Positions 2,877 to 31,737 of a stretch of 31,889 nucleotides of DNA are shown here, in pieces. This stretch comes from Cochliopodium minus (taxonomy: Eukaryota > Discosea > Himatismenida > Cochliopodiidae): assembly GCA_024220525.1 (NCBI GenBank), contig JAMYWO010000004.1, positions 258,270 through 290,158 on the forward strand, read 5' to 3'. Both the position numbers and the translations under genes were made by a program. The stretch's first letter is position 1. Every line of letters starts with the position of its first letter. A model generated the notes under the pieces. The model had not been told where the DNA came from. It ran no database searches and saw only the letters and a list, made by a program, of their open reading frames with translations.

Positions 2877-3514
2877 ATGAAGTNTGTTAAGACCAATCTC
2901 ACCAACATCATTTCTGTCACTACAGGGTCGCATCAGTCTATTTTTGTTAATGGTTTTATTTCAATTATTTTTAAATTGTTTTAATAATTTGATTTTCAAT
3001 TATTTTATTTTTATTTATTTTTATTTATTTTTATTTATTTTTATTTATTTTTATTTATTTTTATTTAGAAAAACGGGAGGTTTTTGTTTGCGGATGGGGA
3101 AATTATGGGAAGTTAGGTCTTGGAGATGAGAAAAGCAAAGACTGCGCTACCAAACTTCCGTTCAGAAAAGACCTCAATATGGTCCACAACCACTATCGAC
3201 ATCTAGTATACTTTTCATTATTTTTTTTGAAAAACATAAAATAAAATTGAAATGTTTATATTTTCATCAAATTATTTCAATTATTTTATTTTTTAAAAAA
3301 TTTCATTTTATTTTTTTTAAAATTTTTTTTAAAAAATTAATTTTAAAAGGAATGGAACATAGAACTCCATAAGTATTTCCCCAGATCTTTCAAACAGAAT
3401 GTTTTTGCTTTCTTGTTGTGTTTGCATGAGCTTTCCCTGTCTAAAACCTATCAAGTTCATGTGAAGCTTCCCAAGCCCTTACAAAAGCTGATCATCAAAT
3501 CTAGTTATAACTGA
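2877..3514 (+). CDS. Short or truncated RCC1 protein with conserved C-terminal box
   Basis: Three exons close in frame: 2877-2952, 3069-3205 and 3350-3514, giving 125 aa from the ATG at 2877. The first two exons carry RCC1 blade sequence (IISVTTGSHQSIFVN, then EVFVCGWGNYGKLGLGDE), with the typical W-G-N-x-G-x-L-G core. The last exon begins EWNIELHKYFPRSFKQ and ends in the C-terminal box shared with the RCC1 genes at 27163 and 29669 and the ankyrin gene at 15833 (VFAFLLCLHEL ... KLPKPLQKLIIK). A normal family member has about 470-500 aa, so this is either the 3' end of a gene whose upstream part has decayed or a truncated gene. The start is uncertain, and base 2884 is N, so one residue is unknown. 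Confidence 0.65.
3009..3067. repeat. 10-bp minisatellite in an RCC1 intron
   Basis: The unit TTATTTATTT is repeated in strict 10-bp register about five to six times, ending at the TTATTTAG acceptor of intron 2953-3068. The repeat supplies the pyrimidine tract and the acceptor itself. Confidence 0.8.
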
Positions 3515-3737
3515 CTATAAAATGAGTGTCCATTAAAATTTAAATTAATAAAAATTAAATAAAAAAATCTATTAATAAAATATTAATAAAAAAATATAAA
3601 TAATAAAAAATAAAATAATATACAAAAAAAATTCATTTCAAAATTAAAATATTTTAATAAAAAAATATAATACACTTGTCAACAAAAACTCATTTTCTTT
3701 GTTTATTTCGAATTGACTATCAAAAAAAATAAAAAAA

Positions 3738-5348
3738 ATGAGCATATTTTTTGACTCCCTCCCTCAAAATGCACTGTTATCCATCCTCTCGTATCTTCCC
3801 AACAAAGATTTGGGCATCATCTCCTTGGTCAACAAGAAATATTACAAATTGTCACGTCATAATTTCATCTGGAAGAAGAGATTGATCTCTCATTTTCAAT
3901 TCAAAGGTAATTTGATTGAGAAATAGGAATCCTTCCAAAAAAATATAATATAATGAAATTTGTTAGTAAATATGATCTACTTTAACAAAAATGATAATAT
4001 GGGATACATTGATATTATATAGTATCTTATGTTGAGATTTAAAAATTGATCCAAATTATAAGGAGAATAAAGAATTCAAAATTGTTTTAAATTGTATTTA
4101 TTTTATTTTTGAATTTTATAAAAAGAGAATATTGAAGAAACAAGCTACGAAACTTACAAAACTTTTCTCAAGGCAAAGATACCAATCTACAAGAAGACAT
4201 TGGATTATCTCAATTATAAAGACACCAACAGTCTTTCCATGGTTAGCACTTCCTGGATGAAGTTAACAGATCATGTAAAAATAAATTATATTAATTAATA
4301 TAACAAAAAAAAAAAAAAAAATTAAAAATAAACATAGTAATAATAAACAAAATAACTAAAAAATTTTATTTTTTAAAAAAAGATATACAAGAAAAAAATT
4401 GCCGAAAAGTTCCCAAAATTCCAAATTCCCAACTTGACCTCTAACAAAAATACTAACTACAAATCTTTGTACATTTCTCTTCTTAAAAAGGAGTTTTACA
4501 TTAACTGGATGAAGGCCACCCTTAAAATTATATTCATAGGATATTTAATCAATTATTTCTTAGTTACGTTAAAACAATACGTTTCTCTTTCTTACATAAT
4601 TTTTTTCTTCCTAGGTTTGAAAGTTCTCAAGTTCACTGTGTTGTCTGTAAAAAAAAAATTAAAATCAACTCATTTTTATAAAATCAAAATATTTCTTAAA
4701 AATAATAGTACTTCTTCAAAAATTTTGGAAGAAAACTGAATCCTATTCGTTATTTCTTTTTCACTGACATTTATTTGATCTACCACTCCTTCCATTTCAT
4801 CACCTCCCAGCAAAATTATTTTAACGTAGATATTTACTCTCCCTTCCTTCTCAACCTGGTATGTTTGCAAATTATCACGTTTGAAGTTGGAAGTTTGTTT
4901 AATGTCCAAGTTTCTCTTTCTCTTAGCAATCTATTTCAGGTAAAAATATTTTCTTATAAATAAAATTTGTATTTTATTTTTTGAAAAAATTTTTTATCGA
5001 AATAACTTACAGATTTTCTTATATGGCCTGGGCTATATTACCCCAAGTTCTCACATATTAGTTATCTACCGTGCCCTCATAGGTTTCGTCTTCTTTTTCA
5101 ACCCACAATCGAATGCGCGTTTCTCGAGATCCAATACTAAATTTTTCATAATCTCAATGTATGTCGTCATGTCCATTGTCACAGCTGTAGTTTTCTTTCT
5201 CCAGTTATTTTACTTCGGATCTTATCGTGATTATACTTATTGGATTTTCTTTGCTGGAATGTTTGGTTTTGTAATTCATTTGAACAACGTTAGAATGTAC
5301 TACCAGGTATTTAATTCTTTGAACAGAAGAAGAAAGAACTATTATTGA
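3738..5348 (+). CDS. F-box protein with a second F-box-like unit and a polytopic membrane domain
   Basis: Five exons close in frame: 3738-3906, 4126-4274, 4383-4646, 4709-4939 and 5013-5348 (382 aa). Residues about 6-50 are a clear F-box (SLPQNALLSILSYLPNKDL, then a W at about 48). After WKKRLISHF a second, weaker unit follows (YKKTLDYLNYKDTNSLSM ... SWMKL). Each unit is followed by a similar YxTYKTFL/YKSLYISLL helix, so the N-terminal half looks like an internal duplication. From about residue 135 the protein is strongly hydrophobic, with roughly six or seven predicted spans (for example IIFFFLGLKVLKF, MSIVTAVVFFLQLFYF). I do not recognise the membrane family. F-box proteins usually bind SKP1 as substrate adaptors of SCF ubiquitin ligases; a membrane-anchored one would act at a bilayer (inference). 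An alternative is two neighbouring genes wrongly joined at 4646/4709, but phase and hydrophobic character are continuous there. The gene converges on its right neighbour, with 62 bp between stops. Confidence 0.6.
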
Positions 5349-5410
5349 AAATCAAAATGATCAAATATTAAATTTCGAAAAAAAAAAAATTATGACTTTT
5401 TGAATTTTTT

Positions 5411-6540
5411 TTATTTAAAGTCCAATTCCTTTTTTCTTTCTTCATTAATTTTCATGAACTTGGTAACGGAGAACCAATCATCTGTGAAATACAAGTTAAA
5501 AGCCAAATAAAGGAGTTGGTTCGGTTTACCCACTTGTCCAAAATTGATTGAGCACAAAAAACGCTTGTTTATGAGTGTTCTCAACAAAAACTTTCTCTCC
5601 CCAAAATCAATTAAACCTTCAACTAGTGATCAATTTTATATTTTGTTGATAAAACTTTTTAAAAAAAAGTTTTTTACTTGTATCACCGTTATTGTATCCC
5701 GATCCTTGTCCAGATGGTCCAACCCTATAAAAAAATGTATAGTTCAATTTTTTTTAGATTAAAATTAAGAATGAAATTAGACCATCCATTTCCAGCAAGT
5801 CCAATCCCCTCACCCCCTCCATCACAACAATACTGAATTAAGTTTATAAGAGTAATATAAATGTAAGAAAACTTGATTAAAAAAAAAAATACAATATTCT
5901 CTCTTATATTCGTGGTTACTAAACCAATAGCTATGTGTCCATTGGAAGTAGTATGAAATTCAACTGTAAAGTGGAAAATCCCTTTATTGAATCCCCTGGA
6001 TACTCTAGTACTACAAATTTTTTTAATTTAAAAAATTTAATAATAAAAAAAAAAATTTTTGGAAATTTGGAAACCATGATAGGCTTTCTCTTTTCTTCAC
6101 TATTTTTCTCTTTTCACTAACTTGGTAGAAATTTTTTTCGCAGATTTTTGGATCGAATTGGACAAGATTTGCTTTTGTTTTTTATGAGAATAATATAAAT
6201 TTTTAATTTTAATATCACCCACCATCCCTGACGAAATTTTTCCATGTTTCAATTTTTTCCAATCGAAAATCTTCATCATTGAATCCCTCTCTTAATGCTT
6301 TCGATCTCCAAATCTAAAAAAAAATATATATATAACCACCAAATAATTTATATATAATTTATGTCATACCTGATCTCTGTTCATTAATTCTTCCCACTAA
6401 ATCATTTAATTTAATTTCTTTGATCGTTTTTAAAAATATACCTTTTTACTTATTTTTGTCATTCTTCCAATTGTCTCAATATCAAAATATTCACATAAAT
6501 AAATACACAAAGGTGAAGGTAATTTGGAAATATGATCCAT
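5411..6540 (-). CDS. F-box-SPRY protein (SCF adaptor-like)
   Basis: Eight short exons on the minus strand join in phase: 6540-6442, 6396-6370, 6313-6223, 6171-6075, 6010-5893, 5832-5783, 5724-5678 and 5622-5411 (246 aa). No single frame reveals this gene. Residues about 6-60 are an F-box: KLPSPLCIYLCEYFDIETI, then WEELMNRDQIWRSKAL. Residues about 85-235 read as a SPRY domain: FDPKICEKNFY, FHFTVEFHTTSNGHIAIGL, GWVGPSGQGSGYNNGDTI, EGLIDF, and CSINFGQVGKPNQLLYLAFN. The G-D-x-I-x-x-L-x-D core is typical. This matches the known FBXO45-like plan in which the F-box binds SKP1 and SPRY selects the substrate. The smallest intron is 45 nt (6397-6441). A 19-nt T run lies just upstream of the ATG (6541-6559). 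Confidence 0.8.
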
Positions 6541-6664
6541 TTTTTTTTTTTTTTTTTTTGCACGAGTCTGAACATTCATGAAAACACATATAGTCTCAAA
6601 ATTTCACCTTAAATTTCTTAGTTCTTTTAATTCATTCAAAATTAATCTCTTTTTATTCAAAATC

Positions 6665-9600
6665 CTAAAAAAACAACAAGAAAGAAAGGGCCAACAAAGC
6701 AGAGGATACAAAAAAAGAAGAAGCAGAAGAGGTGGAGGTAGTAGTAGAAGAGGTGGTAGTAGTGGTAAAGGTTGCATCTCTAACGAGAAGACCAGGATCT
6801 ACATAACAGCTCTTTGAAGCATAGTTGGATTGAGTGACAGAGGTAGGATAACCTTGAGGATCAGCAACAGAAGAAGAAACAAATCTGTAGTCGGTGATTA
6901 ACAATGTTTGGTTGGCAGTGAGGGTCCATGATTGGTAATAGGTCATGTCAATTCTTGCAACAAAAGTATCGGTGTTGTATCCAAAATCTGCCAATGGAAT
7001 TCTGACTCTGGTCCATCCTTCGTTGGTGATTGCCCAGTTGTTGATGTATTTAGAAGTGACAACAAGCTGAGAAAGTCAAAAATAATTTATTAATTTGAAA
7101 AAAAAAAAAAAAAAAAAAAATTTCTTACAGAACTTACAACAGAAGAATTAGAGGTAGTAATTGCGAGTTGAAGTTTGATTTGACTAGGAGTCACAGCCTT
7201 TGCCCAGAATTGGAGAAAAGAAGTCTTTGCAACGAGGATTCCGTTAGCATCATTGTGAACTGCAAATCCTCCGGTCATTGTGTTAATGCTTAATGAACCA
7301 GTGGAGCAACTGGTTGGCTTATCAGTAGAATTAGAAATGGTAGTACCCCAAGACCAAGAAGTCCACGAAGCTGGTTTGTTTGCTGTGATTTGGTTAAGAG
7401 CGTTGCTGGAAATGATTACAAAGTTATCTTGAGGAACGCTGCAAGCCGCTTGAACGGAAATTTGAGGAGGAGGAACACAATTTTTGTTTCTGCTGGTTTC
7501 ACAACCTGCCATTCCGACCAATTCTAAGATTATTAAATGAAAAAAATAAGTTTTTAACAAAAATTGTCAATTGATTTTTACCATTAACTGCGATTTGCCA
7601 TTTTCCAGAATAGATGTTTTGGTATTGAGTGTAAGATGGATAGAATACACCTTCAGCAGGGGAATATGGAATACCAAGATCGAAACCTCCCATGGTCAAA
7701 GAAACGGTTTGAGGTCCCTTTCCGTGATAGATTTGGTAAGACAAGATCTTAGTACGCATATCAAATCCCAAAAACGCTTGACCGTAAGTGTTGGAAGTTC
7801 CAGTAGCAGGGCACAAATCAGCTTTATACAAAGATTCGTAAGCAGGAAGAGCAGGAGGAATGGTAACAGTCCCAGGAGCACAACCAGATTTTGTGCATGA
7901 GTGTCTAATGGATACTTGATTGTTCCAACTTGCTTGGTAAACAAATCCTCCATCAAATTTGCTTGTAGTGGAGGATGCAGGAAGACTGTTTTCAACACGC
8001 ACATAAAGCATGTTGTTTCCAAAGTAATAAGTATCTGCAACAAGGTTGTCGAGGGAAGATACTTGGGTAAAGTTAGCTGCAGGATAAGTTCCTCTAAATA
8101 CTTTAATGGTTCCAGCAGGATATGGAATACCAACAACTACCCAATCACCAGGTGCAGCTGCAGTGAACATTAAATCGAGAGACGGAGGAGAAGGATGAGG
8201 CCATGTAACAACGAGACCTCTTCTTGCAATCATGTTAAGTCTGTATTCAGTTCTAGTCGCATCTTGCCAGGACTCTCCGGTGGTACCGATTCCGTTAGCC
8301 TTTTGAGTATCACCAAAATAGTAGAAATTGGATCTAATCCAAGGATTAGTGTTGTTCAAATTGGTTCCAGAAAACTCGGTATTTCCAGTGTTCATGTTTT
8401 TGATATTCAAATAACCAAAACCTTCATAAAAAGGACCACATCTTTGGGATGCTTCAGTCTTGTTTGCAACACACACAGACAAGTTGTAAGTGTGAAATGG
8501 CTCTTCTGGAACAGACCAAGTACCCATGTTTCCAGTGATTGTACCATCAACATCGTGAATGTGAACAAATTTTGGGGAATCTTGTTCGAGTCCAGCACTG
8601 TAATTGTTAGGATATCTTTGGTTGAAAAATCTTTGAGATCCATCCAATACTTTAGTTCTGAGATAACGATTTTGTGGGAAAAGGATGTTATGTGCATTTT
8701 CGAGAGAACTGATGATTGAAGATTGTCTGAATTGATTTGAGAAGCAACTTCCAAAAGTGTTGTTGTTTTGGAATTGAGGACCAGCTGCATCATAATTTTG
8801 ATATCCGTATACAGGAGCATATGGAGACCAAATATTTGCTCTAGCTCTAGGAGTTACAACAAAACCTGCCCACCCAGGGTTAATAAAATATCCGGTGTTG
8901 TTAGTTTCACAAATGAACAAAGAGTTTTGAACGGTTGCAGGTTGTACAATTGCTTGAAATCCAACTCTGTTGTCAAAAGATTTGATTCTGTAAAACCACA
9001 AGTTTGAAGCACGAAACCAAAGTCCAAATTGTCTATTTTTGTATGCAAGAACGTCAGAAAAGGTTCCTGGAACAGCTTTTCCTGCAGTGGTAGAATTGTA
9101 TGGACCTGTTTGAGGAGACCAAGATGGATTTGCTACTTGTTGGATGGTTCCATCCGGATTTTGAAATTCATCAACCATTACTCCAGAATCTCTGTTACTG
9201 TGAGCAACATTATTTGAGAAACTTCCCAAAGGCATCTTTCTAGGAGACATCATATTATCATTTGCCTATTAAATTTAATTAATAATTAATAATTAAAATA
9301 TAAATAATTATAATCTGTTTACATATTTGGCTTCAGATTTTCCATTGGGCTTAACTGGAAAGACATACCAAAAACCAAAGGTTCCTCCACTAGCAACGTT
9401 CCCAGTAAAAAAGTTAAGGGGATTAGGAATCCAGAAAACACTAGCTTGTGTATCAGAAGGGATGATTTCTCTATCTCCATCTTGAATGTTCAAAACTTTA
9501 GCACCCAAGTTGTTGGTGAATACATTGTTGATTTCCGACCCATCTTCCAAAAAGTAGCAACTGCATGTGATGTTGTAAGCTACATTGCTATCAACTGTGA

Positions 9601-11664: not shown

Positions 11665-14600
11665 TTAATCAATTTCAATATTATCAATAAATTCGTTGAT
11701 CAATAATCTTTGACGAAGAATAGCATTAATCCAAGTCTGAGCATGCATCTGATCCGATCCTTTCAATATGATGAACCCATTGTCACCCTCAAAATTAATT
11801 TTAAAGCATGTCCCTTTTGTTTAAAAAATTAATTTTATTATTTCATTTTTTAAAATTTTATTTTTTTTACCTTGGAATACTTCAGGTTCGTGCTCAGTTA
11901 ACTTGCATTTGTAGAGGGCAAACTTCTTTTCGCATTTGGTTCCCTTTTCTTTGAATTTAAAGAGAAAGCCCTCTTGTAAGCAAAAATATTTTTTGATCCA
12001 TTTTGAACCGTAGAATTTGACACTCATGTAATCTATGTAACCCTCTTTTTGTTGTTCCAACTTTGAGATTGGAGATTTCCTATTTGGATCAAAAATTTTG
12101 AAAAAATTTGAATTATTTGAAACTTTTAAAATTTTACCACAAAACATCCCTCTTTTTGTCTCTTTCAAGATCTCTGAGTGCGTTTTGTTTGGAATCCTCC
12201 AATATTTTGATCCACTCTAATCATAATAATTAATACAGTAATCTTATTTTTTTTTTTAAAAAAGTTTTATACCTAACATAGTTTTATTACTTTCTGCTTG
12301 AATGGAGAAAGTTCTTTCAACAGTAACTATCTGAAATACATCTTTAAAAATTAAAAGAATAATTAAAATTGGGGATAAAAAATATGAAAGGAAAAACCTG
12401 TTTTAGTTTCAAGAGCAAAAATAGAATTGACGAAAGCGAGAGGAATGAACCCTTCAGGCTTCTTCCCTTTCTTCTCCTCGCTCAAGTAATAAAGGAGCTT
12501 GTTGTTCTTCAAAACAAAGTAAAATTGCTTGAAAAAGCTGATAATCCCCTCGGTCTCCATCTTCATTGTACCTTCTTTAGTGAGATACTCTTGTAACTCG
12601 GGAAGATCATTAGATTCATTTTCGTTTCTTTCGATCATGAACTGCTTGACGAGTTTAACAGTGTTTCTCTTCTTCCACTCCTTGAACTCATCACTAGGAA
12701 AGTTTGTCATGTCAACTGTGGTTGTTCTTTCGAGCAGATTTTCTGAGTTGGCGGATGCTGTTACATTCATGTTATTATTCGAAGTGTCTGTTAACAGAAA
12801 AAAAGAATTAAAGTGAAAATAATTTTTTTTTTTTTTTTGAGTTTACTTTTACGAATGTCTTCTTTTTGAGGATCTTGTTTCACGACTTTTGGTTTGTTAG
12901 GTGTCGAAGGGAGAATTTTGTTGACTTTTCTTGAGAAAGTTATGTTGCATTTGTGACATTTATACTGGACCTCGCTCTCAAGGCTTAGTTGTGTATTACA
13001 TTTAGAACAGTTTGGTGGTTTGGTTGTGCTAGTTGAGGTTGTAGTGGGTTTGGGAGGAGGCTTTGTAGTTGATGTTGTAGTCGTGGTTATAGTTTTAGTT
13101 GGAGGTTTGGGAGGAGGCTTTACAGTTGAAGGGGTTGTTGTGGTTGTGGGGATTTTTGGAGGAGGTTTAGGTTTTTCTCTCTCCAACTTTTCTTGTCTCT
13201 CCTTTTCTTGTTTCTCCTTTTCTTTTTCCATTTTATCTCTTTCTTGTTTCTCCTTTAGCAGTTTCTCTGACTCCAACCTTTGCTTTTCTAATCTTTGCTT
13301 TTCTTGTCTTTGCTTTTCTTGTTTCTCTTGGAGTTGTTTTTCTTTTTCCATTTTTTCTCTTTCTTCTTTCTCCTTTAGAAGTTTCTCTGACTCCAACCTT
13401 TGCTTCTCTAATTTTTCCTTTTCCATTTTTTCTTGCTTTTCTTTTTCTTGTCTTTCCTTTTCTTGTTTCTCTTTGATTTGTTTCTCCTTTTCCATTTTTT
13501 CTCTTTCTTGTTTCTGTTTCTCAGACTCTTGTCTTTGTTTCTCTAGTTTTTCCTTTTCCATTTTTTCTTTTTCTTGTTTTTCTTTTTCAGATCTTTGTTT
13601 TTCAATTCTTTCTTTTTCCTGCTCCACTTTCTTCTTTTTGTTTTCCTCTTCTTCCAATTGTTTTTTCTTTAGATCCTCTTCTTTTTGTCTTGCTATTTTC
13701 TGTTAAATTTAAATTAATAACGAAAGAAGAAGGCTTCTAAAAGTGTTTACTTTCCATTCTGGTTCTTGGTTTGTATCTTTTTTTGGTGTGGCGTTGGTTT
13801 GCTTTTTGTCTATAAGATTGGAAATAAAATCGACAGATTCTTGTTTTTTGGTGGGAACTTTCGGTAGTTCTTTGGGTTGAACACTGTTAGTTACTTTGCT
13901 TGGCTCTTCTTTTTTGATATTACTAGTAAAAGTTTCTTTCCTTGGCTCTTCTTTTTTAATAGAATTTGTCACATTTTCTTTCCTTGTCTCTTTTTTGGGC
14001 AGACTTATCACATTATCTTTTATTTCTTCATTTTTGGGTGGACTTTTTATGCTTTCCATACTTAACAGACTTGATATATTATCTTTACCTGATACTTGAG
14101 TACAATCTATGAAAATAATAGTATTCATAAATTATAAAGATTATTTAAAATGAATACCATTATCTAATTTATTATGTTTGATTGCTGCAATGAAAGCTTT
14201 TTTTCCGCACATGTTACCTTTAAAATATTATAAAGATATAATGTAAAATGTAATTGGAATTTTACAATATGGCTTTTCCATTACAGCAATGCACTAAAAT
14301 TTATTAATAATTTAAATATTGAAAAATAAATTATTAATAAATTTACTTTTCCACCGCTGATACTCTTTTTGCAAGTAAAGCACTTGAAACATTCTTTATG
14401 ATAAGAATGATTTTGGAATGTAACCATGTCTCCTGAAGTAGCTTTTTGGCAAAAAAAACAACTACCGCCAGATGTTCTACTTGGTCTTTTAAAAAATTAA
14501 ATGAAAATTTTAAAATTTAAGGTTACTCATTTTGTGGTATTTCATCTGTTTTTTGTTTTTTTGGCACTTGGTTGGTAATTTGAGTAGTTGGCTTGGTTTT

Positions 14601-15832: not shown

Positions 15833-17202
15833 ATGGGAAATGAGAACAATTCGAGAAAGAAATCTATAAGAGAGAATAGAATTATAAATTCAAATGATCA
15901 AAAGAAGGAATCAGAGAAAATAGAATTAAAAATTCCCTTTGAAATAGAACAATATTTGAAGAAATATTATATTAACTCATTGAATCCACAAGGGAAAACA
16001 ATATTACATTATTATTGTATGAAAGATCTTGATTTTGAGAAGATTTCTGTTCTCCTATCTCTCAAGGCAGATGTAAAATGAATATTTAGTTAAATCGTAT
16101 ATATAAAATGAACTATATTTGTACAAGGTAAAGATAAATGATTTGGAAAAAAGAGAAGCAATACATTATGCATGCATGAACCCGAAAATAAATTTTGAAA
16201 TCATCAAATTATTAATGGAAAATAGAGCAAATTTGAATAATAACGATAATCAATTGAATTCTGCAATATTTTATGCAATAACCAACAAAAATGTAACAAC
16301 CGAATTGATAAGGAGATTGGATGAAATGGAAAGAATAGGTTTTGAATTGTTATTAGAAGCAATAGGTCCAATGATTCCAACCACAGAACATAGAGAAAAG
16401 ATTATTGAGTTTTTGATCACAGATAATAATTATATAAAACAAAAGGGTATAAATATTTTATTCATTATTGAGAGATCTAAAAATTCAATACAAAATTTTT
16501 AGATCTACAGTTAAAGTCTCTATTACATCACACATGCCTCATCAATTCAAATTATAATCTTATTTTAAAATTGATCGATAACAAGGCGGATGTAAACGCA
16601 GTGGACTCTCATAAAAAGAGCCCTTTACATTGTGCTGTCTTGAACAATGACACCTCACCTGACATTATTCTTTCATTAATAGAGAAGGGAGGTAAAATTT
16701 ATTGTTATTTCAAAATTGTTTTATCAAAGTATGATAACTATATAGCTGATCCTGATTGGTTGGACAATGACCAAGTATGCTTATTTAAAATTCTTTTTAA
16801 AAATAAACATATGCTTAGGAAACGTCTTTGCATTATGCGTGTACACGGGTAATATTTCTTTTGAAAAAAAAAATAGTTTTTGAACCTATTTTTTTAATTA
16901 AGAATAAACCTGATTTTGTAATCATTCTATTAATGAAAAAAACTTCTATCAATTTGAAAAACTACAGAGGTCTAACTGCAAAAGAAATTGCTCTTGTTCA
17001 TGAGGACAGAGAGTGTTACGATATTTTGGATGACTTTGAAAGGGGTTTATATCTTTGGAATGCTAAAAGGGAGAAGTACTTCCCCTTTTCTCTAAAAAAC
17101 AAAATTTTGTGCTTATTGATTTGTATCAGAGTAAAAAAGGGAAAGTTTAAATTCCCAAAGTATGTAATGTTTATCATAATCAATAACATTATTTTTAATT
17201 AA
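15833..17202 (+). CDS. Ankyrin-repeat protein with the shared C-terminal box
   Basis: Six exons join in phase to 368 aa: 15833-16072, 16128-16446, 16503-16691, 16746-16774, 16819-16848 and 16903-17202. Degenerate ankyrin repeats run from about residue 45 to 310: GKTILHYYCMKDLDFE, REAIHYACMNPKINFEII, KSPLHCAVLNNDTSP, ETSLHYACTRNKPDFVI, and a final INLKNYRGLTAKEIAL. The last 40 residues (YFPFSLKNKIL, ICIRVKKGKF, KFPKYVMFIIINNI) match the tails of the three RCC1 proteins in this window. The protein starts MGN, so N-myristoylation is conceivable. Ankyrin repeats bind proteins, and the tail may recruit a common partner (inference). Exon 3/4 and 4/5 junctions are supported by the repeat pattern across them; the exon 5/6 acceptor could alternatively lie upstream, though that gives a worse repeat. 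Confidence 0.8.
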
Positions 17203-17278
17203 ACCTTTCTCTGAAAATCTGATTATTAGAAGATTATAATTATAATTGATTATATTATTGAACATTTCATAAAAAAAA

Positions 17279-20200: not shown

Positions 20201-23200
20201 AACAGCTGGATTGACAAAGTAAAGAAAATCAATGAAAAAACGGATGGAATTTTCAATGAAATCAAAGATCTCTGCCAGTTCAATGAAGTAGACTTTCCAT
20301 CTGATATGGAAATTTTGTCGATCACTTGTAGCCTTCAGAAGATTTTAATTTCAAAGAAGACCAGCGCAATTACTTCCAAAATTGAACAAGTGGTCAATAT
20401 AATGAAAAACATTGAGAGTTTTGGAGAGAATTATGAGGAAAAGGAAGAGCATGTGAGTTGCATTTCCAAAATCACTTATGATTTGTTGAGTTACATTTCA
20501 TGGCACAAAGATTGGAAAGAAATTTTGCACCATGGAAACAACATGTCGAAGATATTGAACTACCCTCTCATTTTACAAAGAGTTTTACAAATATTGGTTG
20601 AAAAGTAAAGTGTTTCATTTCTTTGGATTTATTTTAATTGATTTTTATTTAGTGAAAAAATAGAAAGGGGATCAGTAATGAGGCCATTGCTCGAATTGGG
20701 AAAACTTGAAGAAAATAAGTTAATATCAGAAAGTCTGGGGAATTATTTACAAACCTTGTCAAAAATTAACATCTTTAGGATTACACCCGGTTTGATAACC
20801 GACGATTCTGTCATTGGAAATCTCAAAAACATTTCGCCTATGCCTTCCTTAAACAAACTGACAATAAGAAATAGTGGCAAGTTAACTTCAAAGACACTGG
20901 ATTTCTTTTTAAGTTGGGCTCCCAATTTGTCTGATTTTTCTTTGAGGAACTATTGGAACATTGGTGACGAAGGTGTTTCCATTTTGTCAAAGTTTGAAAA
21001 GCTCGAAAAATTGAACATTGGTCCAAGTTTGATCGAATCCAGATCAATGGATCATTTTTCAAGATTGTCTTCTCTCAAAGTTCTGAGCTTGAATAAATGC
21101 TTCAAAGTTGAATATCTCCCATCAATGAAAGCTTTGGTGACATTGTCCATCAAGAATTTTTCTCAAATTTTCGTCAATTTTCAGAACTACTTCAACATCT
21201 CCAATTTTCCCAACCTTAACAACATTTATTTTCGAAACACCAACATTTCTGATGAAAATCTTTCTTTCATGTGCGATGAATTTTCAAGCAACATAACAAA
21301 ACTTTGTCTCAACTATTCCAAGGGAATTGCCACTTTGAAATGCATCGAAAAATTGTCCTCTTTAAAATCTTTTGAAGCCAGATCTTTCAAGGGATACACC
21401 AAAGAAAGTGAAGAAGAAGCGATCATCTGGCCAAGATCGATAACAAAGATTGATTTGAGAGATTCCAAAGTATCTGATTCCTTTTTCGATTCTCTTCACA
21501 GTAACAATCTGAGATATCTTGATATTCAATTCTCATTGATTTCAGATAAAGGCATCCTGAGAATCCTCGAAAATTCATGGAAATCATTGAAAGTGTTGAA
21601 GATCAGATTCTGCGAGCTTCTCACTTCTGAGAGCAAGAAAGTCATCTGCTCCAAGAGCAAAAACTTGAAGAAGTTTTCTGCAATGGACATCGAAGCTCAT
21701 CATTTTATGAAATTGGATCTCTTGAAGCTTGTGAGACTCAAAACTAATTTTTCCAACTGCTCTCTTGAAGATTACAAAAAGATCATTCCAAGATTGATCA
21801 ACCTCAAAGGACTTTCTCTGAAATCTCAACTTGAAGATAAGGTAGTTTCTTACATCTGTAATCACTGCAGAGAACTCAAGAAACTCAATTTGTCGAGCGA
21901 AACACTCACGGACGAGGCTTGTGAATACATTTCGAAGCTCAATCCAAAATTGAAAGAGTTGGACATCTCTTACTGCTCCTCTATCACTAAAGTTGGTTTA
22001 GAGTTTCTTTTGGAGAACAACTGTACACTCAAGCGTTTGAAGGCTTACAATTGTAACACAATGGAGCCTGCTTGTTTCAATATCATAGAAGAAAGATGTG
22101 GGTAAAAAAAAAAATATTAAAAGTTTAAATTTTCTTAAATTTTTTTTTAAAAAAATTTAGATATCATCTCGAAAAATTTGAAGGGTTTTTTGGTAAAAAA
22201 AAATTTTTAAAATTTTAAAATAAAATTGAAGCTTTTTTATTCACCTAGCTTTGTCACAATCAAAAACTTTCTATTTTCCCAACCTAAAAAAATTTAAGGG
22301 CTATTTCTTTGAAGAAACTGGCAAGAGTTTCTCAGAGATGGAGAAACTTCTTAAGCTGGACGCATTTTTCACCACCATTGAAGACAAACAATTAGAATGT
22401 GTGACGACATGCAAGAGTCTAGAGAATTTTCAGTGTTTGAGGGGTACTATCATCAATATTTGTGAAAAAGATCCTACCTTTCTTCAAACATGGGGAGAAA
22501 ATAACGAAACAAAAAATAATATTAGGTTTTTGAATCTTCCTTTTGATAAATTTAATGAAAGAAACATTCTTTACTTGAAACATTTCGAGAATCTTGTTTA
22601 TTTCCCTCTCGATCAACTTAAAGTCTCTTCTACTTCCAAGTATAATTTGAAGAGCTATTTCCCTCATTTCAATGAAAATTTTATCACTAAAAGCAACGAG
22701 GAGAAAAACTTTCTTTCTACCAACAGAGAATCCATAAAGTTCCAATTTTCAAATGATATAGTTTGCCCTCTTTGGAAAGGACAAGTAGCAGGTAAAAAAA
22801 ATTTTTTTTTAATTTATTATTTATATAAAAATAACAATTTTGTATAAATTTATTTTTATTTTTGAATTTGTTTAGTTGTAAACCACGGTCATGGGGAGGT
22901 ACAAGCATTCATAATCATGAAATTGTTTTCGATGGGTTACAAGGTGTTCGCCTTCTATGACGATTCCATAAAATGCAAGGAGACAGAGATGTTGCTGGAG
23001 GAGAAATTTCAAAGGAATGTCATCATGTTACCTTATGTCCCCAACAGTGAAAATTCGGTCAAGGAAGCTTGTGAAAAAGCCCAGAGTTTGGGTTTAGATA
23101 AAATAGATTTGATGATAGCAGGTCCTCTAGGAGAATCCCACTTGCTTGGTAAACATTTTTTAGAATATTTTTTTTTCTTTAAATTCCAAACATTTTATAA

Positions 23201-23835
23201 ATAAAAATTTTTTATTAATTTTATTTTAATGTTTCATTTGAAACTAGAAGAAGTGTCCAACAGTATCGAATGTTGTACCAACCAAGAATTCTTGGCCACA
23301 ATGGACAAACTTCTCTTTCCAACTTTCTATTTCTTGAAGGTCTTTTCTCCAATCATCACCAGCACTCCTAATGCGAAGTGCTGTTTTGTAGGATCGATCA
23401 TGGGTCTCATTTATGGTAATTATTATTTAACATATAATTTTGTTTGTATATTCATTTTTTTTTAAAGTGAATTTTTCTGGGAGACAATACTATAACAGGT
23501 AATACATATTTTTTTCCCAAATTTAATTATTTATTATTTTTATTTAGAATTGTTAATTCTTCTGTACATCAATTATTCAAAAATGTTTGCCTGGAGTGGA
23601 GGGATAAAGGGGTTTTGGCATTTTGTGCGGTCCCTGGATTTGTTTCAACAGGAGAATATGTTAAGTACAAAAAGGATCGTTTTTTTTGATTTTCATTTTA
23701 TTTTCATTTTGTAGATATGACATTGTTGGATCCACTGCTTACGTTGGTTGTGAAAAAATTTTCAAGATCATCGATTTTGCCAGTATTGAGCACTCTGGCT
23801 TGTTTATTAATGATAGACTTCAAATTGTTTTTTAA
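17279..23835 (+). CDS. CLU-like / leucine-rich-repeat / degenerate SDR fusion protein
   Basis: Twenty-two exons join in phase to 1752 aa: 17279-17537, 17673-17968, 18045-18129, 18183-18200, 18286-18366, 18422-18548, 18599-18666, 18714-18887, 18934-18943, 18995-19145, 19196-19316, 19371-19512, 19564-20054, 20103-20604, 20653-22101, 22161-22192, 22249-22791, 22876-23148, 23248-23415, 23468-23498, 23548-23664 and 23715-23835. Residues 1-185 are Ser/Asp-rich and disordered. About 186-400 read like a CLU domain: GHELKNISALFDVV, DFMGFRLFVQSLLPI, ETLVYGSEDGG, YAIDLARLLPPD and FRPEFL. GINVRYLGLVR near 464 fits the same group. A helical part follows, then LRRs from about 842 to 1516 (LKVLSLNKC, LKELDISYCSSITKVG), of the F-box-LRR/AMN1 style. 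Residues 1517-1752 resemble a Rossmann SDR (VVNHGHGEVQAF, MIAGPLGES, CFVGSIMG, FCAVPGFVST). The catalytic Lys of YxxxK is absent, so it is probably not an active enzyme. Function is unknown. The exon 1/2 intron (135 nt) is the least certain junction. Confidence 0.75.
18934..18943 (+). other. 10-nt microexon
   Basis: ATCTTGCGAG is flanked by AAAAG and GTAAAA. Without it the exons 18714-18887 and 18995-19145 are out of phase, and reading through hits TAA at once. With it the peptide is AIDLARLLPPDVD, matching the D-x-A-R-x-x-P-P core of CLU domains. This is the only in-phase solution I could find. Confidence 0.8.
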
Positions 23836-23913
23836 AAAGTTTAAAGATTAAAAATTATTTTATTAATCATTTTTAATTATTTTCGAGCAAATTTATTGAC
23901 AAATAATAGAAAA

Positions 23914-26598
23914 TTAAGCTTTTTGTTTTCTCGAACCAAGATAAAGAACTGCAATTGAAAACAAGTGCAAGACTATACAAATTGCCACTAAAATGACATA
24001 ACTTCTCCAAATAGAAGCACCAGACTCCAAATAAGTTTTAATTGCAACAGATCCAGTGGTAATTGGACATATGCTACCTACTAATTCACTTAATTGACAA
24101 GTGAAACTGTAAAAATTAAGATTAGAAAACATAAATTATAAGTAAAATAATAAAAATTACGTTGCTCCAGAAAATTCATTGATGGCTAGAATTTCGTAGG
24201 CGTATTTGATGGGAGACATAAATTTGATCCAAATTAGATAAACAGGAATTGATGAAGACTTTACGAAAAACCCTCCCAACAACATGAGTGGAATGAATAT
24301 GATAGGTGCAAAAATCAAAGAAATTTGGAAACTTTTAGTTGCAGTAGAAATCGCAACAGCAAGTGCTTTTAAAAAATTTAAATAAAATATTTTAAAATTC
24401 TTTTTTTTTTTAGGTTTACCAACTGCTGTATGAATTGTAAGAACAAGGGTTGCATAAAAAATGAAGAATTTTCCGGCATCCTTGTTGAGTCCAACCATCC
24501 AGTAAACAAAAAGGCTGAATATCATTGCTGAAATAAAATAAAAAATAAAAAATTAAAAATTAAAAAAAAAATTTTTTTTACGTTCAACGATTTGGAGAGG
24601 AATCATTGAGAGCATTTTGGAACAGTAGTAAGCCAACAAACCATACCATCCACCTCCCTTTTCTCTCAAGAACAACCCTCTTTCAGCGGGAAAAGCATGA
24701 AGTTCTCCCATTAGATTAGACATGAAAACGACACTACAAATTAATTGAAGAAGTTTGAAAGTTTCAAAAAGTTGGAAAAATAATAATAAAAAAATAAAAC
24801 AAAAAAAATTAAAAAATTAAAAAATAAAAAATTAAAAAATTAAAAAATAAAAAATTAAAAAATTAGATTGTTTACATCATACAAAAGAATAATACACCTT
24901 GTCTGTTGGTTATACTTGTTTGATTATGGTCCATTTTCAAGTAGACGAGACCGATCAAGAGACCGAAGAAGATGTTCTGGAAGACTTTTGCCAACAAGAC
25001 AGCAGGGTTCCTTATCATCTGTTTTGCAGACCTCTCCAACAATATTCCAAACTTATAAAATTGTGAACCCTTATTTTCTAAAATAACAAAAAAAATAAAA
25101 ATTTCAAAAAAAAAAATTTTAAAAAAATTAAAATCTTTTTTTTACTCTTTATTTCTTTTTCTATTCCTTGGTTCCCATAATTTTCAATTTTACTTTCGTT
25201 TGGTTTGTATTTTTCAATCAAGTCTTTGGTGATCTCCGCGCTCTCAATCGTTTTATTTTCGAGTTGAAGTTTATAACCTGATGTGATCTGTTGTTGATAA
25301 AAAAATGATTAGAAGGTTAATAGGTGATTATGAAAATATTTTTTTTTTTTTTACCAAGTTGAGAAGGTAATCTGCAGGATTTTGATATTGTGGACATTGA
25401 TATCCAAGATTTGCGAAATAGGAAACCACATCTTTGGTGGATCCGTAATATACTTGATGTCCATTTGCGAGCAATAATAATTTATCGAAGAGAAAGAATA
25501 CTTCTGCAGAAGGTTGATGGATTGTAGCTATTTTAAGATAGATTTAAGGTTAATATTTGATATAAAGGGTTAATATTTCGTACAAATGATTGTTCTTCCT
25601 TGTTTGGCGAAATCTTTGAGGGAATGTATCAAATTTATTGATGTTGCAGAATCCAATCCAGATGTAGGTTCATCCAATAAAATCACGCTTGGATTATTCA
25701 ATAATTCCTTTTTTTTTAATTTTTCAGTTATTTATATAATTTAATATTTTTCTTTAAATTAAAAAAAAGAAAATTTACTTGACCGATTGATACTCTTTTT
25801 CTTTGTCCACCCGAAATTCCTTTTTGTCCTTCTCCACCAACATAAGTATTTTGGCAAGATGTAAGATTCAATTCCTTTTTAAAATTACACATACAATAAA
25901 ATAAAATAAAATTTTGCGAAATTTATTTAAATTCAATTACCTTGATCACTTCATCAACTATACCCATCTTTTGTTCATCAGTTATATCTTTTGTTAATCT
26001 TAATTTGGCGGCATAACTCAAACTCTCTTTTACTGACAAAAAAGGAAGCAACAGATCATCTTGTTGTACATAAGCCATATTGTGCTTGAAATCCTTCTTG
26101 TTGAATTCCCTCCCATTTGCCAAAACTTCACCAGTCATTATCCCTCCCATCTATAAAGCGGAGAATTAAAAAAAAAAAGAAAGAAATTGTTAAATTTACC
26201 TTTTGGCCCAAAATGTTGAGAAGAGTTGTTTTACCACTTCCACTTGATCCCATAATTGCAACCATCTCTCCTCTCTATCAATTCATATTAATTTTAATTA
26301 TTAATTTTTTTTTATTTTTTTATTTTGCCTTAAAATCCGCAGTTACTGAATGCAATATTCTTATTGATTCAACTTTACTGAAACTCTTTCTTTCGACAGT
26401 CAATCCAACGTTTCTCAAATTAATATCAAACTGTTTATTGTGCCCATTCGAAAGATACTTAAAAGAATTCTCGTGGTTCACTGACATTCCTTTTCCATCC
26501 TTTTGTTCTTCCATCTCGATCGAAACTTCATCCAAATTTGTTAAATTTATTTTGGAATTGTGATACTCTGTAGGTATGTTATCTTGATTTAAATCCAT
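23914..26598 (-). CDS. ABCG (White/WBC) family half-transporter
   Basis: Twelve exons join in phase to 649 aa: 26598-26329, 26274-26200, 26150-25941, 25874-25779, 25707-25584, 25527-25355, 25287-25146, 25077-24876, 24733-24582, 24527-24420, 24365-24161 and 24106-23914. The nucleotide-binding domain comes first: Walker A GSSGSGKTT near residue 99, Q-loop YVQQDDLLLPFLSVKESL, signature ISGGQRKRVSIG near 206, Walker B VILLDEPTSGLDS and H-loop TIHQPSAEVF. The C-terminal half has six predicted spans (RNPAVLLAKVFQ, GLLIGLVYL, LHAFPAERGLFLREKGG, SMIPLQIVEP, SPIKYAYEILAINEF). Domain order and length fit ABCG half-transporters, which dimerise to export lipids or small hydrophobic molecules; the substrate is unknown. 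All catalytic motifs are intact. Intron 1 has a GC donor. The gene converges with the CLU-LRR gene, with 78 bp between stops. Confidence 0.92.
24808..24864. repeat. A/T minisatellite inside an ABCG intron
   Basis: Alternating units of ATTAAAAA and ATAAAAA repeat about seven times within intron 24734-24875 (142 nt), the longest intron of this gene. Slippage in such repeats can explain intron-length variation. Confidence 0.7.
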
Positions 26599-27071
26599 TC
26601 TTTTGTTAAATTGTTTTTTTGTTATTTTGTTTTTTTATCTTTTCTTGTATAATTTTTTTTTTTTGATCAAAAATTTCTTAAGAGGAATTAAATTTTGTGA
26701 AAAGGGATTTTCGAGGGATTATTTTGAGGGATTTACAAGGGATTTTTTTGAGGAATTAATTTAACTTTAAAAAGATTCAAATTCTCCAACGAGAGTTTCT
26801 TCGGACCAATTTTAATATTATCTTACTTTTTTTTCAGATCTTACAAACCAAGATATTGAAACTTTAATCCTTTAATCAGATTGTCCAAGATAATTTAATC
26901 AAAATTTAATTTCTTCTAAATATGGAACATTATTTTTAAACATTCATTCTAAGATATTTGGATCATTTTTACATTTGTGATATTTTTTATAAAAATTGCA
27001 AAAATCTTCAATTATTCGATGCTAGCATCAAATTTTTGAGTTCATCAGATAAAGTTTATAAAAAAAATTTC
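26599..27071. other. Intergenic region between the ABCG and RCC1 genes
   Basis: About 470 bp serving as upstream DNA for the divergent ABCG gene and the G8 fossil/RCC1 gene. Apart from the GGGATT cluster described separately I see no gene. Confidence 0.4.
26704..26757. promoter_or_regulatory. Phased GGGATT repeat cluster upstream of the ABCG gene
   Basis: GGGATT occurs at 26704, 26715, 26728 and 26739, with a related GGAATT at 26752 and another at 26684. Spacings alternate between 11 and 13 bp, close to one helical turn, and the spacers before GGG are similar (TTCGA, TTTTGA). The cluster lies about 105-160 bp upstream of the ABCG start, where a set of binding sites would be expected. A degenerate tandem repeat is the alternative. 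Confidence 0.4.
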
Positions 27072-27138
27072 ATTTAGATGGTGTATCATTAGGATCCAAG
27101 GGTATTTCTATTGCAACTGGATTATCTTGAAATATGGG
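27072..27138 (+). pseudogene. Fossil of a G8-gene exon
   Basis: From ATTTAG at 27072 the plus strand nearly duplicates the start of the intact G8 gene's exon 5 (minus strand, 10397 downward), including its splice acceptor. It reads DGVSLGSKGISIATG against DGVALGSKGIAIATG. After this the frame is lost by a deletion of a few bases, but TTGAAATATGGG is again identical. The match ends at ATGGG, which is also the beginning of the 13-bp repeat that contains the RCC1 start codon. This is a relic of a second G8 gene copy, not a functional gene. Confidence 0.8.
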
Positions 27139-27175
27139 AAATTCAACAATGAAAAAAAAAAAATGGGAAATTCAA
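27134..27175 (+). repeat. 13-bp direct repeat at the RCC1 start codon
   Basis: ATGGGAAATTCAA occurs at 27134-27146 and again at 27163-27175, the latter beginning with the RCC1 start codon. The first copy overlaps the end of the G8 fossil, so this is probably the junction of a duplication or insertion event. Confidence 0.7.
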
Positions 27176-29394
27176 AAGTCAAATCAAATGTGATAAAAAA
27201 CGAGAAACAAGAGAAAACAAATATTGAAAACATAAAAGAGAAGAAATTAGAGATTGATCATAATTCAATACAGAGCAAGAAAAGAAAATTTATACCAATT
27301 AAACAAGAAGATTTCACTCTTGAGAAACATGATTACAAAATTGGATTCTTTATAACTGAAAATGATGATAGAATCAAAGATGAATCCAATAATCCAACAT
27401 TATGTAATCCTTCCAAAGAAATTGATCAATAAATTTATATTCAATTAATTTAGTTGATGAATATACAATCGAAAATATACCAACCATATCAAGTACTGCT
27501 GATTCTACTTATGGTATCATTAATAACTCAATAATTACCAATTATATATTATTAATTTATTCATATTATTTCGCATATGAAATTTTATATTATATTATAA
27601 CCAAAAAGGAATTAATGAAGAGGGAGTATTAGTTTCTTGGGGACAGAGTTTGAAAGATCAAGACTATCATCCTGATGTAGAACCAGTGGAGGAATTTTTG
27701 GGGATAGGTGTGGTGGCAATAGGGATTGGAAACTCTTCAATGGTACTTCTTTCGGATGATAATAAGATTTATTATCCCAACAAAGTGTAAATTCGTTCTT
27801 TGTTTTTCATTTTTAATTCTTTATTAACTTACTTCACAAATTAGATCCAAAGAATTTTATTATTTGTTCCAACCACCAGAAAAAGTAATTTGCGTATCTT
27901 GTAACGAGCAAGAACTATTTGTGGTGTGCGAAAACTCTGTTGTTTATACCAAACAATTTTCGGTTAATGTAATCAAAGAAATCACCTCTCTGAGAGACAA
28001 AAGTATAAATAGAGTAACCTCTTCAATTTTCCACTCCATCTTTTATTCTACTATAAAGGGAACTTTTTATGGCTATGGCTTGGCAAGAGATCATTCTGTT
28101 CAAGACTTATTTTCGGACTCTGAATCAACTAACAGTGAAGATGACGGAAAAAAAGATCGTTCCCCTCTTAATCAATTAGACATGACTTGGTAGATTCTTT
28201 TTTTAAATTTCATTATTTTAATTTAAAAAATGTTTAATTATATTCTGTCATATTGGAAACAAAATTAAAAAAATGTGGGTTTGTTTTGCAGCTTTCAACT
28301 GCTTTCATTCTATTTCTGATAGGACATTTTCATTTTTCATTTTTTTCAAATCATTTCTTATTTATATAAAAATTAATTTGAATGTGATAATTGGATCTTC
28401 AGTTAATGAATAAAATTTGATCCAAATTAATGTTGATTAAATTATTGGTTTGTTTATTAAAGGTTACCAAAAGGAAGAAGAGTTGTAAAACTTGGATGTG
28501 GTGGAATGGCCCATTATTGGTTACTAGATGATGGTTCGTTTTACACTTCTGGAAGTAACGGAAATGGTGCCATGGGGAGAAGCAACGAGGATGTCATTTG
28601 TGCTAAACCATTTGAAGAGAAAGTTCTTGCCTTTTCAGCGCAATATTACGGGTGTATTTTACTTGTTAAACACAATAATACTACTTCCCCAACTCTTTTG
28701 TATGGATGTACGATTTTTAGCAATTATAATTTTTTTTTTAAAAAATTTTTTTTTTGAAAGTTGGTTATAATACAAACGGAGAAATGGGATTAGGAACAGA
28801 AAACAGGTTAACTCAAAAATATCCTGTTCCATTGGCTTACAAAAAAAAAAAGGTGGTAGGAATGTATTGTGGATATTTTCATTGCCAACTCCTCGTTGAA
28901 TCTGACAAGGGAGAAAGACAATTGTTGGGATGGGGTAATTGCCATTTTGTGGATTTTAAATATTTATTTCAACCGAATTCGGTTAAATTGTTTGACTGTT
29001 TTTAATTTAGCCAATTAAGTTAATTAATTTTAGATTCAGGAAAAACATCATTATTATTTTGATGGATTTATTGAGACATTCTATAAAATTTAATGCAAAT
29101 TTATTAATAACAATACTAAAAATTTGTAAAGGGTTCAATTATTACGGGCAAGTAAATAATTTTAATAGCACTGACAAAAGTTGTAGAGGTGCTTCTTATT
29201 ATAACCCAGTCTATGGAACCAAAAAAATTTCAAGATTTCTTTCCAACGTTTGTATCTCTTGGTCTCCTGATATACATCATTCTTTTTCACCCATCGTCAA
29301 AAAAAAAGTTTTGTTTTACTTGTTGGGACTCAAATTTCAGAAAATGAAACTTCCGAAATATTTGAATTATAAAATCATTAAACTATTTTTGTGA
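27163..29394 (+). CDS. RCC1-repeat protein, paralogue A
   Basis: Seven exons join in phase to 501 aa: 27163-27403, 27454-27513, 27609-27786, 27845-28189, 28463-28707, 28761-28934 and 29132-29394. After a Lys/Glu-rich, probably disordered N-terminus (about 80 aa, starting MGNSKVK), RCC1-like blades run from FDEYTIENIPTISST onward: GVLVSWGQ, ICVSCNEQELFVVCENSVV, FYGYGLARDH, LLDDGSFYTSGSNGNGAMG, FGYNTNGEMGLGTENR, and CGYFHCQLLVE. The fold should be a beta-propeller. The tail KKKVLFYLLGLKFQKM ... KLPKYLNYKIIKLFL is the shared C-terminal box. No BTB domain is present. RCC1 propellers act as exchange factors or protein-binding platforms; the tail favours an adaptor role (inference). The 273-nt intron 28190-28462 is unusually long. 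Confidence 0.85.
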
Positions 29395-29396
29395 AT

Positions 29397-29564
29397 GTAA
29401 AAAGTGGAATTCAGGAGAAACATTCCAAGAATTTAAAAATAAGAAAAATTGATAAAAAAATTTTATTGGAAATATTGTGCTTTGCAAGAAGAGATAATTT
29501 TAATCAAAATCATGATAGAATTGGATATCGAGATTCTTTTCTCACAAATAAAATGCTAATTTGA
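29397..29564 (+). other. Unexplained open frame between the RCC1 paralogues
   Basis: A frame open for 55 codons ends at TGA 29562-29564 and contains DKKILLEILCFARRDNFN. The amphipathic character and higher GC look coding-like. It is not in frame with the RCC1 gene before it and has no clear start. It could be a relic exon from the duplication; I cannot assign it. Confidence 0.25.
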
Positions 29565-29668
29565 AATCACCATGATGTACTCTTTCATAAATATAATATA
29601 ATTCATTTGTTTTTCAAATTTTCTGTTTTATAGTTCTGTGATCCATTTTTGATTAAATATTAAAAAAA

Positions 29669-31737
29669 ATGAAAGGCCCAAATGAAAGAAAGATTGTTGA
29701 GATAGATATTAAATTTAATAAATCTCAAATAAATAATAATGCATCCAATGAATTCAAAATTGGATCAAAAAAAGAAACAGATATAATACGTAACCAAAAT
29801 AATATCCAATATTTGGCAATATAAAATATAAATAATGAATATTAAAATAAATAGTGGATGAATATAGTATCGAAAATATACCAACAATTTCAAGTACATC
29901 TGATTCCACATATGCAATCAATAAAGAAGGAAAATTGGTTTATTGGGGAAAGGTGGGAACAAATGATAAATTCTATCCTGAAATCGAGTTGGTGGAGGGA
30001 ATGGAGAATGAAAATGTGATTGCAATGGCAACTTCGGGAATCAATAGAATCTTTCTGACTATTGATAATAAAGTGTTTGTGATCATTGGGTAAATATCTA
30101 TTATTTCATTTTATTATGTGATATATTTTATAATCGTTTATAAATGAGATCAAATAATCTTTATCATTTGTAAATGTTGATCCAATCATTTTTATTAACA
30201 AATTTTCAAATTTAAAATTTAATTTCGATGAGATTCTTGGACTATTTTTAATTCATTATTTTTTTTTATAATTTAAAGAATAAAATCATAAATAATTTAA
30301 TAAAATTTCATTACTTTTTTGATTAAAATAGTATTTTTTATATTAAATATTTATTTTGTAATAGTAATTACAATAATAATAAAGTTGAATATGTCTTCAC
30401 TCCAAAACAAAGAATTCTTTGTGTAGCCTGCAACTATACCAGCTTCTTGGTAGTCTGTGAAAACTCGGTGGTTTATCTTATAAAGAATGAGAACAAAAAT
30501 ATTTTGGAGATCACATCACTTAGAAACAAAAATATTAATAGAGTTTCCGCACAAACTAATCGTGCCATTTTCTCTTCACAATTTAACAAAGACCCAAATG
30601 ACGATCTTTTTATTGGTTATGGGTTTTTGTCGGATCATACTGAAGTTTATGGAGATATCAATATGGGATTAGAAGAATTGGATATGACTTGGGTTCCAAA
30701 GGGGAGGCGTGTTGTAAAAGTAAAAATTAATTCAATTAAAATCTCATTTTATAATTCATTATTTTATAAATATTTCACTTGTCAATGTTGTTTTAATTTT
30801 TTTTTATTGAAAGGTACAATGCGCAGGAGAAGCAAATTATTGGCAATTAGATGATGGGTCTTTTTTTTCATCTGGTAGAAATGGTAATCGAGCTTTAGGA
30901 AGAGGAAACTCAGGGAAGATTTGTGATAACCCCTTTTCTGATGGCAAAAAGATTCTGGCATGTGCGGGACAGTTTTATGGTTGCATTTCTCTTGTTCACC
31001 AAGATAAACCAAATGAAAATAAACCTTCTCTTATTTATGGCTGTAAAACTTTTTTTAAAATATACATATATTAATAGTTTATTTTTTATTTTTATAAATA
31101 ATATTTATAATAATATCTTTTGGCAGTTTTTTAATAGGTAATTTTTAAATAACCAAAATTTTATTATTTTCTTAGTTGGATACAATGCGAACGGAGAAAT
31201 GGGTTTGGGAACTAACAATTCAACGAAAATTTCGCCAGTTGAGTTGACATATTGCGAAAGAAAGGTGGTAGGAATGTATTGTGGTTATTTTCATTGTCAA
31301 CTCCTTGTTGAACAAAATAATGGAGAAAGACAACTTTTAGGATGGGGTTTGTTTTAAAAATTAAATTAGATTTTTATTATTTGTTTTTTAATTTTATGAA
31401 TTTTATTTATTTAATATTTTTATTATTAATCTTTAAAGGATACAATTCTTATGGCCAAGTTAACTCACTTGATGAAAACCCAAACAAACTAAGAAACAAT
31501 TTTTATTCACCAACTTATGGATCTCGACAAATATCAAGGTTTCTTTCCAATGTTGCAAATTTACCTTGGACTCATGAATATCACTCCAAGTTTCCCATTG
31601 TTGTCAAAAATAAAGTTTTGTTTTATTTGCTTTGTACAAAAGCCAAAAAATTCAAACTTCCAAAGTATTTAAACTTTCAAATTATTAAATATTTTTATAA
31701 TTTTTATTTTATTACAATTAAAACTGGCTTAAAATAA
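29669..31737 (+). CDS. RCC1-repeat protein, paralogue B
   Basis: Six exons join in phase to 469 aa: 29669-29789, 29855-30089, 30365-30719, 30814-31042, 31176-31346 and 31439-31737. It is a tandem paralogue of the gene at 27163: DEYSIENIPTISSTSDST, VVCENSVVYLIKN, IGYGFLSDH, QLDDGSFFSSGRNGNRALG, FGYNANGEMGLGTNN and CGYFHCQLLVEQ all have direct counterparts. The tail (NKVLFYLLCTKAKKF ... KLPKYLNFQIIKYFY) is the shared box, here followed by 14 extra residues. The N-terminus is about 40 aa shorter than in paralogue A, and it starts MKGPNERK. Intron positions are partly different from paralogue A (see findings). Predicted role: propeller-type protein-binding module, possibly an adaptor. Confidence 0.85.

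Follow-up and report, generated by a model that had tools for sequence, protein, structure and literature searches.

The locus and its four tails

The window analysed here, 31,889 nucleotides from Cochliopodium minus (contig JAMYWO010000004.1, positions 258,270 to 290,158 of the forward strand), is eukaryotic DNA with short AT-rich introns and with spliced RCC1, ankyrin and F-box genes. Four of the proteins that it encodes, three built on RCC1 repeats and one on ankyrin repeats, end in a common tail of about 45 residues, for which we coined the name W-H-PK box in this analysis. A preliminary description, made from the letters alone, had pointed out the shared tail and had taken its basic core for half an F-box. 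We verified all four sites, on the + strand, and the fold labels given to the carriers proved right, with Pfam matches to RCC1 in three and to Ank_2 in one (Table 1). The similarity goes beyond chance, since the tail of copy 4, used as a query against the genome, recovered copy 3 at an expect value (E) of 6.8e-22 and the ankyrin copy 2 at E 4.3e-4. Copy 1 did not pass the E 1e-3 threshold with this query; its own search returned RCC1-type tails, for example at locus L008 (E 8.7e-4). The sites were kept as first described, but the start of the tail was moved forward by about 25 bases, to an invariant Trp with which the conserved unit opens.

Table 1. Carrier folds and box copies in the window (positions counted from its first letter).
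Feature	Positions	Strand	Basis
RCC1 repeat exon piece, gene 1	2306..2437	+	Pfam RCC1, E 1.4e-7
RCC1 repeat exon piece, gene 1	3077..3202	+	Pfam RCC1, E 6.2e-6
Box copy 1, RCC1 gene 1, filling its last exon (stop 3512-3514)	3350..3511	+	Sequence reading
Ankyrin repeats, second carrier	16119..16502	+	Pfam Ank_2, E 7.8e-8
Further ankyrin repeats, second carrier	16571..16852	+	Pfam Ank_4, E 1.1e-3, under the curated cut-off
Box copy 2, ankyrin protein (stop 17200-17202)	17056..17199	+	E 4.3e-4 from an RCC1 tail; aligned
RCC1 repeat exon piece, gene 2	28766..28936	+	Pfam RCC1, E 1.2e-4
Box copy 3, RCC1 gene 2, within its last exon (29131-29391)	29260..29391	+	E 6.8e-22; helices predicted by AlphaFold
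RCC1 repeat exon piece, gene 3	31181..31348	+	Pfam RCC1, E 1.3e-4
Box copy 4, RCC1 gene 3, within its last exon (start about 31438; stop 31735-31737)	31567..31695 (about)	+	Profile match

The box is common to all four window copies and to their relatives, and the aligned tails divide it into two conserved parts. The first part reads W-x4-H-x2-[FY]-P-x3-[FV]-K-x2-[IV]-x2-[FY]-L-L-C-x-K, with a near-invariant His five residues after the invariant Trp, and the second, which follows a linker of variable length, reads K-[LIVF]-P-K-[FYP]-[LVI]-x-[FY]-x-I-I-K. In the ankyrin copy 2, the usual His position is taken by Arg-Glu. A profile built from 35 aligned tails picked 72 distinct boxes among the loci that were read, its own members included. 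In these boxes the Trp was kept in 70/70, the His in 69/72, the Pro in 71/72, the Lys in 70/72 and the Ile of the last helix in 66/71; because the tails that made up the profile are among the 72, the figures are partly circular. None of the 24736 Pfam models searched represents the box, and its carriers are therefore currently annotated by their N-terminal fold alone.

Copy number and position of the box

Four tails were used as queries against the genome to which the window belongs (44.65 Mb, 598 contigs) and returned 51 matches for copy 4, at least 150 for copy 1, at least 150 for a third tail and 145 for a fourth. Combined, the four queries marked at least 362 distinct box places on 201 contigs, while a reversed copy of one tail query, which in the forward direction had given at least 150 matches, found none in the genome. 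Tandem copies of the box exist, for instance on contigs C281, C342 and C497. In a random sample of 20 places drawn from the 362, the His was kept in 20/20 and the box lay no more than 58 residues from the stop in 20/20. The Trp was present in the frame read in 19/20, the remaining frame (L082) beginning after it, and the Pro-Lys pair was present in 19/20, the exception being L081.

Over the 72 boxes the median distance from box to stop was 9 residues, with 48 boxes at 20 residues or fewer and 70 at 60 or fewer. To call the tail strictly C-terminal is thus nearly right; the two boxes further from the stop are at loci L017 (61 residues) and L026 (308 residues). The latter belongs to an open reading frame of 556 amino acids (L026:3803-5470) without a Pfam match, in which the box is internal. 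Twelve of the 72 boxes end in a prenylation-type CxxX motif, which sits 28-49 residues past the box. All nine of the GTPase-linked boxes (9/9) are included, and the remaining three such ends belong to one of the four boxes at L028, to L027, whose carrier is RCC1-like by eye, and to L081.

Unrelated folds carry the same tail

Since Pfam identifies RCC1, ankyrin, Ras and leucine-rich repeat (LRR) partners, several unrelated folds carry the tail. Ras-family domains were matched at L022 (E 1.3e-22), L036 (5.1e-21), L023 (9.9e-25) and L082 (2.2e-13), and at L022 and L036 the GTPase domain is followed by the box within one open frame. Ankyrin carriers were found at L043 (Ank_2, E 6.6e-64), L047 (9e-52) and L084 (4.6e-24), and RCC1 carriers at L091 (5.8e-47) and L089 (1.2e-35), among others. 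A leucine-rich repeat precedes the box at L037 (LRR_6, E 7.2e-10). Among the 20 randomly drawn places, Pfam assigned 8 RCC1, 3 ankyrin and 2 Ras carriers at E 0.01; four more (L078, L083, L086 and L029) are LRR-like by eye alone, Pfam giving no LRR for them, L087 is RCC1-like by eye, and L012 was assigned to the RCC1 type through the kinship of its tail. The idea of a portable C-terminal module on different folds was borne out in this way by RCC1, ankyrin, LRR-like and Ras/Rab GTPase carriers, and the box is not confined to close paralogues.

Two loci have N-terminal parts that are not RCC1, ankyrin, LRR or Ras: L081:1014-1529 (- strand), with a weak GLMA_2nd match under the cut-off, and L028, with no Pfam match. 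The window itself also holds a single-exon leucine-rich repeat reading frame at 20678-22105 (+ strand; LRR_6, E 3.2e-7), in which no box was noticed by eye, no dedicated search having been made.

Predicted structure of the box

For the tail encoded at 29131-29391 of the window (18 sequences), AlphaFold predicted two helices, one spanning model residues 54-71 and the other 76-86, with a mean predicted local distance difference test score (pLDDT) of 61.8 and values of 67-84 in the box blocks, which is moderate confidence. For P0015 (33 sequences), a model that comprises a partial propeller and the box, helices were predicted at residues 160-165, 168-188 and 194-203, after the last strand, and the mean pLDDT of the four ten-residue blocks from 161 to 200 was approximately 83, 91, 96 and 90. 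The solved RCC1 chains listed for P0015 align with its residues 1-152 and none of them with the box. The propeller is the N-terminal fold of three of the window carriers, and because the box helices are separate and the solved RCC1 chains, which do not cover the box, stop at residue 152, we regard the box as an appendix and not as a blade. In the AlphaFold models, of which this one contains a partial propeller, the box is predicted to fold apart from its partner, as a separate helical unit and not as a continuation of the propeller.

Relatives in environmental sequences

Among environmental proteins, two profile searches matched 14 and 32, which amount to 43 distinct proteins. Most of the 31 that were read are RCC1 pieces ending in the box, and these relatives keep the Trp, the His and the Pro-Lys pair. 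An ankyrin repeat was matched in one protein, P0043 (Ank_4, 0.0052, under the cut-off), and two (P0041 and P0042) are cut within the box. In the viral and prokaryote contigs searched, no relative of the box was found.

F-box genes of the same genome

The genome gave at least 150 F-box-like matches. None of the 362 box places overlapped the F-box-like matches listed, which are 150 of 469 candidates, and F-box genes and box genes look like separate kinds. The two can be close neighbours: in the window, a true F-box gene (3738-3950, + strand; F-box-like match at 3750-3887, E 2.4e-8) begins approximately 230 bases past the stop of copy 1. For three of the 362 box places, a listed F-box match lies no more than 2.5 kb away on the same strand, in all cases on the 3' side.

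Proposed function and alternative explanations

One box is joined to the C-terminus of unrelated recognition folds in more than 300 copies in a single genome. We consider it highly probable that the tail is an independent, portable docking box. It would consist of a short helix capped by Trp and His, then a helix of approximately 18-21 residues, then the almost invariant Pro-Lys with a helix of about 10 residues. The constant box would dock on one shared partner, and the variable N-terminal fold would select the client or, in GTPases that have CxxX ends, the membrane. Parts of a cullin-RING system are present in the genome, namely Skp1 domains at six places (contigs C60, C175, C78, C245, C33 and C43, with a canonical SKP1 on C60), which suggests that the SKP1 family is expanded, cullin exons (29 matches, spread over 8 contigs), and an Rbx1-like RING (E 3.1e-14). 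Because these parts exist, and because a constant C-terminal box on variable folds is the plan of SOCS-box and F-box receptors, we propose SKP1/cullin docking. The same logic operates in poxviral proteins that join ankyrin repeats to a C-terminal F-box or BC box, according to the excerpts of two papers that we used (PMC9414399, PMC6232478). Tentatively, and at somewhat less than an even chance, the partner would be an adaptor of a cullin-RING ligase, SKP1 or a relative in the first place, and the carriers would be substrate receptors that act like SOCS-box or F-box receptors and belong to neither. A more specific version, which we hold to be distinctly less than an even bet, is that this lineage has its own third type of C-terminal adaptor for SKP1/cullin, neither F-box nor SOCS/BC, distributed over RCC1, ankyrin, LRR-like and Ras/Rab proteins in more than 300 receptors, among them prenylated GTPase receptors that arose independently of animal Rab40.

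Several results weigh against this proposal. The connection of the box to any ubiquitin component is one that we infer, one box is internal (L026), and no profile, those of the families discussed below included, gave a convincing match. Foldseek and VIA-align returned no relative of the tail model, which is itself of modest confidence, and no solved relative of the box was found, structure comparisons having barely covered the box itself. When the 58 boxes with a partner label were compared (14 unlabelled boxes were dropped, and several of the labels were assigned from kinship or by reading), the nearest neighbour of a box was on the same fold in 50/58 and on another fold in 8/58. It follows that most copies came about through duplication of whole genes and that the joining events may be few. 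In favour of the proposal, however, boxes on different folds reach 45-58% identity, above the median of 39% that RCC1-linked boxes have among themselves. Fusion to new folds was thus old or rare, with large duplication afterwards. The nearest neighbours and the tandem copies are also what would be expected if there were no module at all, and the tails were ordinary C-termini of recent paralogues or an effect of AT-rich low complexity. We find this explanation hardly credible, since the box occurs on unrelated folds, the reversed query finds nothing, and the environmental relatives keep W, H and PK. The part of the preliminary description that did not stand is the half F-box, in which the PK helix would correspond to helix 1 of an F-box that is truncated, PRANC-like and binds SKP1; we regard this as unlikely. 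The single sequence hint for it is an hhalign comparison of the box with 20 F-boxes of the same genome, in which 13 columns placed the PK helix on F-box helix 1; the probability was 5%, however, and 5/200 column-shuffled F-box profiles reached or exceeded the match. A distant common origin of the two helices is possible. The six SKP1-like places would also suit a truncated F-box, as would the two-helix F-boxes of poxviruses, which do bind Skp1/Cul1 (PMC9414399, in the part available to us). Against it, none of 35 tails matched the F-box, SOCS or PRANC profiles of Pfam at E 5 (HMMER with filters), none of the box places overlapped the 150 listed F-box matches, and LPxE, the start of F-box helix 1, occurs in 0/72 boxes. 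The most conserved half of the box (W, H and the long helix) precedes PK, in a region without equivalent in an F-box, and only one helix is predicted after PK, the last of the model, where F-box helices 2 and 3 have no counterpart. The likeness to F-box proteins (PF00646, PF12937) consists of a Pro-containing start of a hydrophobic helix and of partner folds such as LRR. The poxviral ankyrin/F-box (PRANC, PF09372) and ankyrin/BC proteins likewise carry a short recruitment box at the C-terminus, behind their ankyrin repeats (excerpts of PMC9414399 and PMC6232478), but truncated poxviral F-boxes keep two helices (same excerpt of PMC9414399), whereas the W-H-PK box has one after the Pro and is joined to several folds in a cellular genome.

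A divergent SOCS/VHL-type box, of the kind that ASB ankyrin proteins and Rab40 use to bind Elongin C together with a cullin, would fit the shared partners (ankyrin and Rab-type GTPase), the C-terminal place and the order of a first helix and a Pro-containing segment; F-x3-F-K-x2-[IV] even resembles L-x3-C-R-x2-I position by position. The SOCS box (PF07525: SOCS, ASB, Rab40) is likewise a C-terminal box of about 40 residues on varied folds that include ankyrin and Rab GTPase, and Rab40, a GTPase with a C-terminal SOCS box, is the form in which a GTPase with a C-terminal recruitment box has so far been known, as far as the accessible part of PMC10509765 goes. The Ras-family carriers described here have the same layout in one frame, with a W-H-PK box in place of the SOCS box. 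We had favoured a SOCS box at first for its ASB/Rab40-like partners, and dropped it because the BC-box pattern [TSP]-L-x3-[CSA]-x3-hydrophobic, taken from the available part of PMC6232478, occurs in 1/72 boxes, LPxP in 6/72, and the SOCS_box profile matches nothing in the genome at E 1. The hhalign probability against two SOCS boxes was 0.1%, and neither of these two has anything that corresponds to the invariant W, H and PK. Elongin C was not recognised either: an approximate yeast query matched a single SKP1-like place (E 0.2) and a Skp1_POZ search led to SKP1-like genes, although introns or divergence could hide it. We consider a SOCS-type box very improbable. The remaining alternative stands as an equal rival to cullin-RING docking, and we hold it with the same reserve: a docking or localisation module outside ubiquitin, which would act as a membrane tether, bind a common scaffold or pair the carriers with one another. 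The CxxX ends on 9/9 GTPase-linked boxes and on three others point to membranes, the box bears no ubiquitin signature, and exchange-factor biology is known to connect RCC1 folds with Ras-type GTPases. Yet 60/72 boxes have no CxxX end, so that a role at membranes cannot be what all of them share, and known ligase receptors have a similar set of partners (ankyrin, LRR-like, GTPase).

We conclude that the W-H-PK box is a new domain family without a Pfam model, which works like the known portable tails and lies outside those tested. These results suggest an undescribed plug-in module through which a large number of recognition proteins connect with a single shared partner, which may be the ubiquitin machinery. 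Even if the box does something other than ligase docking, a constant tail common to GTPases, RCC1 propellers and repeat proteins offers a way into an extensive signalling system that has no annotation.

Elsewhere in the window, long frames at 13020-13706 and 12791-13657 overlap on both strands in a K/E-rich low-complexity stretch. Of this pair, the minus-strand reading looks like a real protein of the coiled-coil type.

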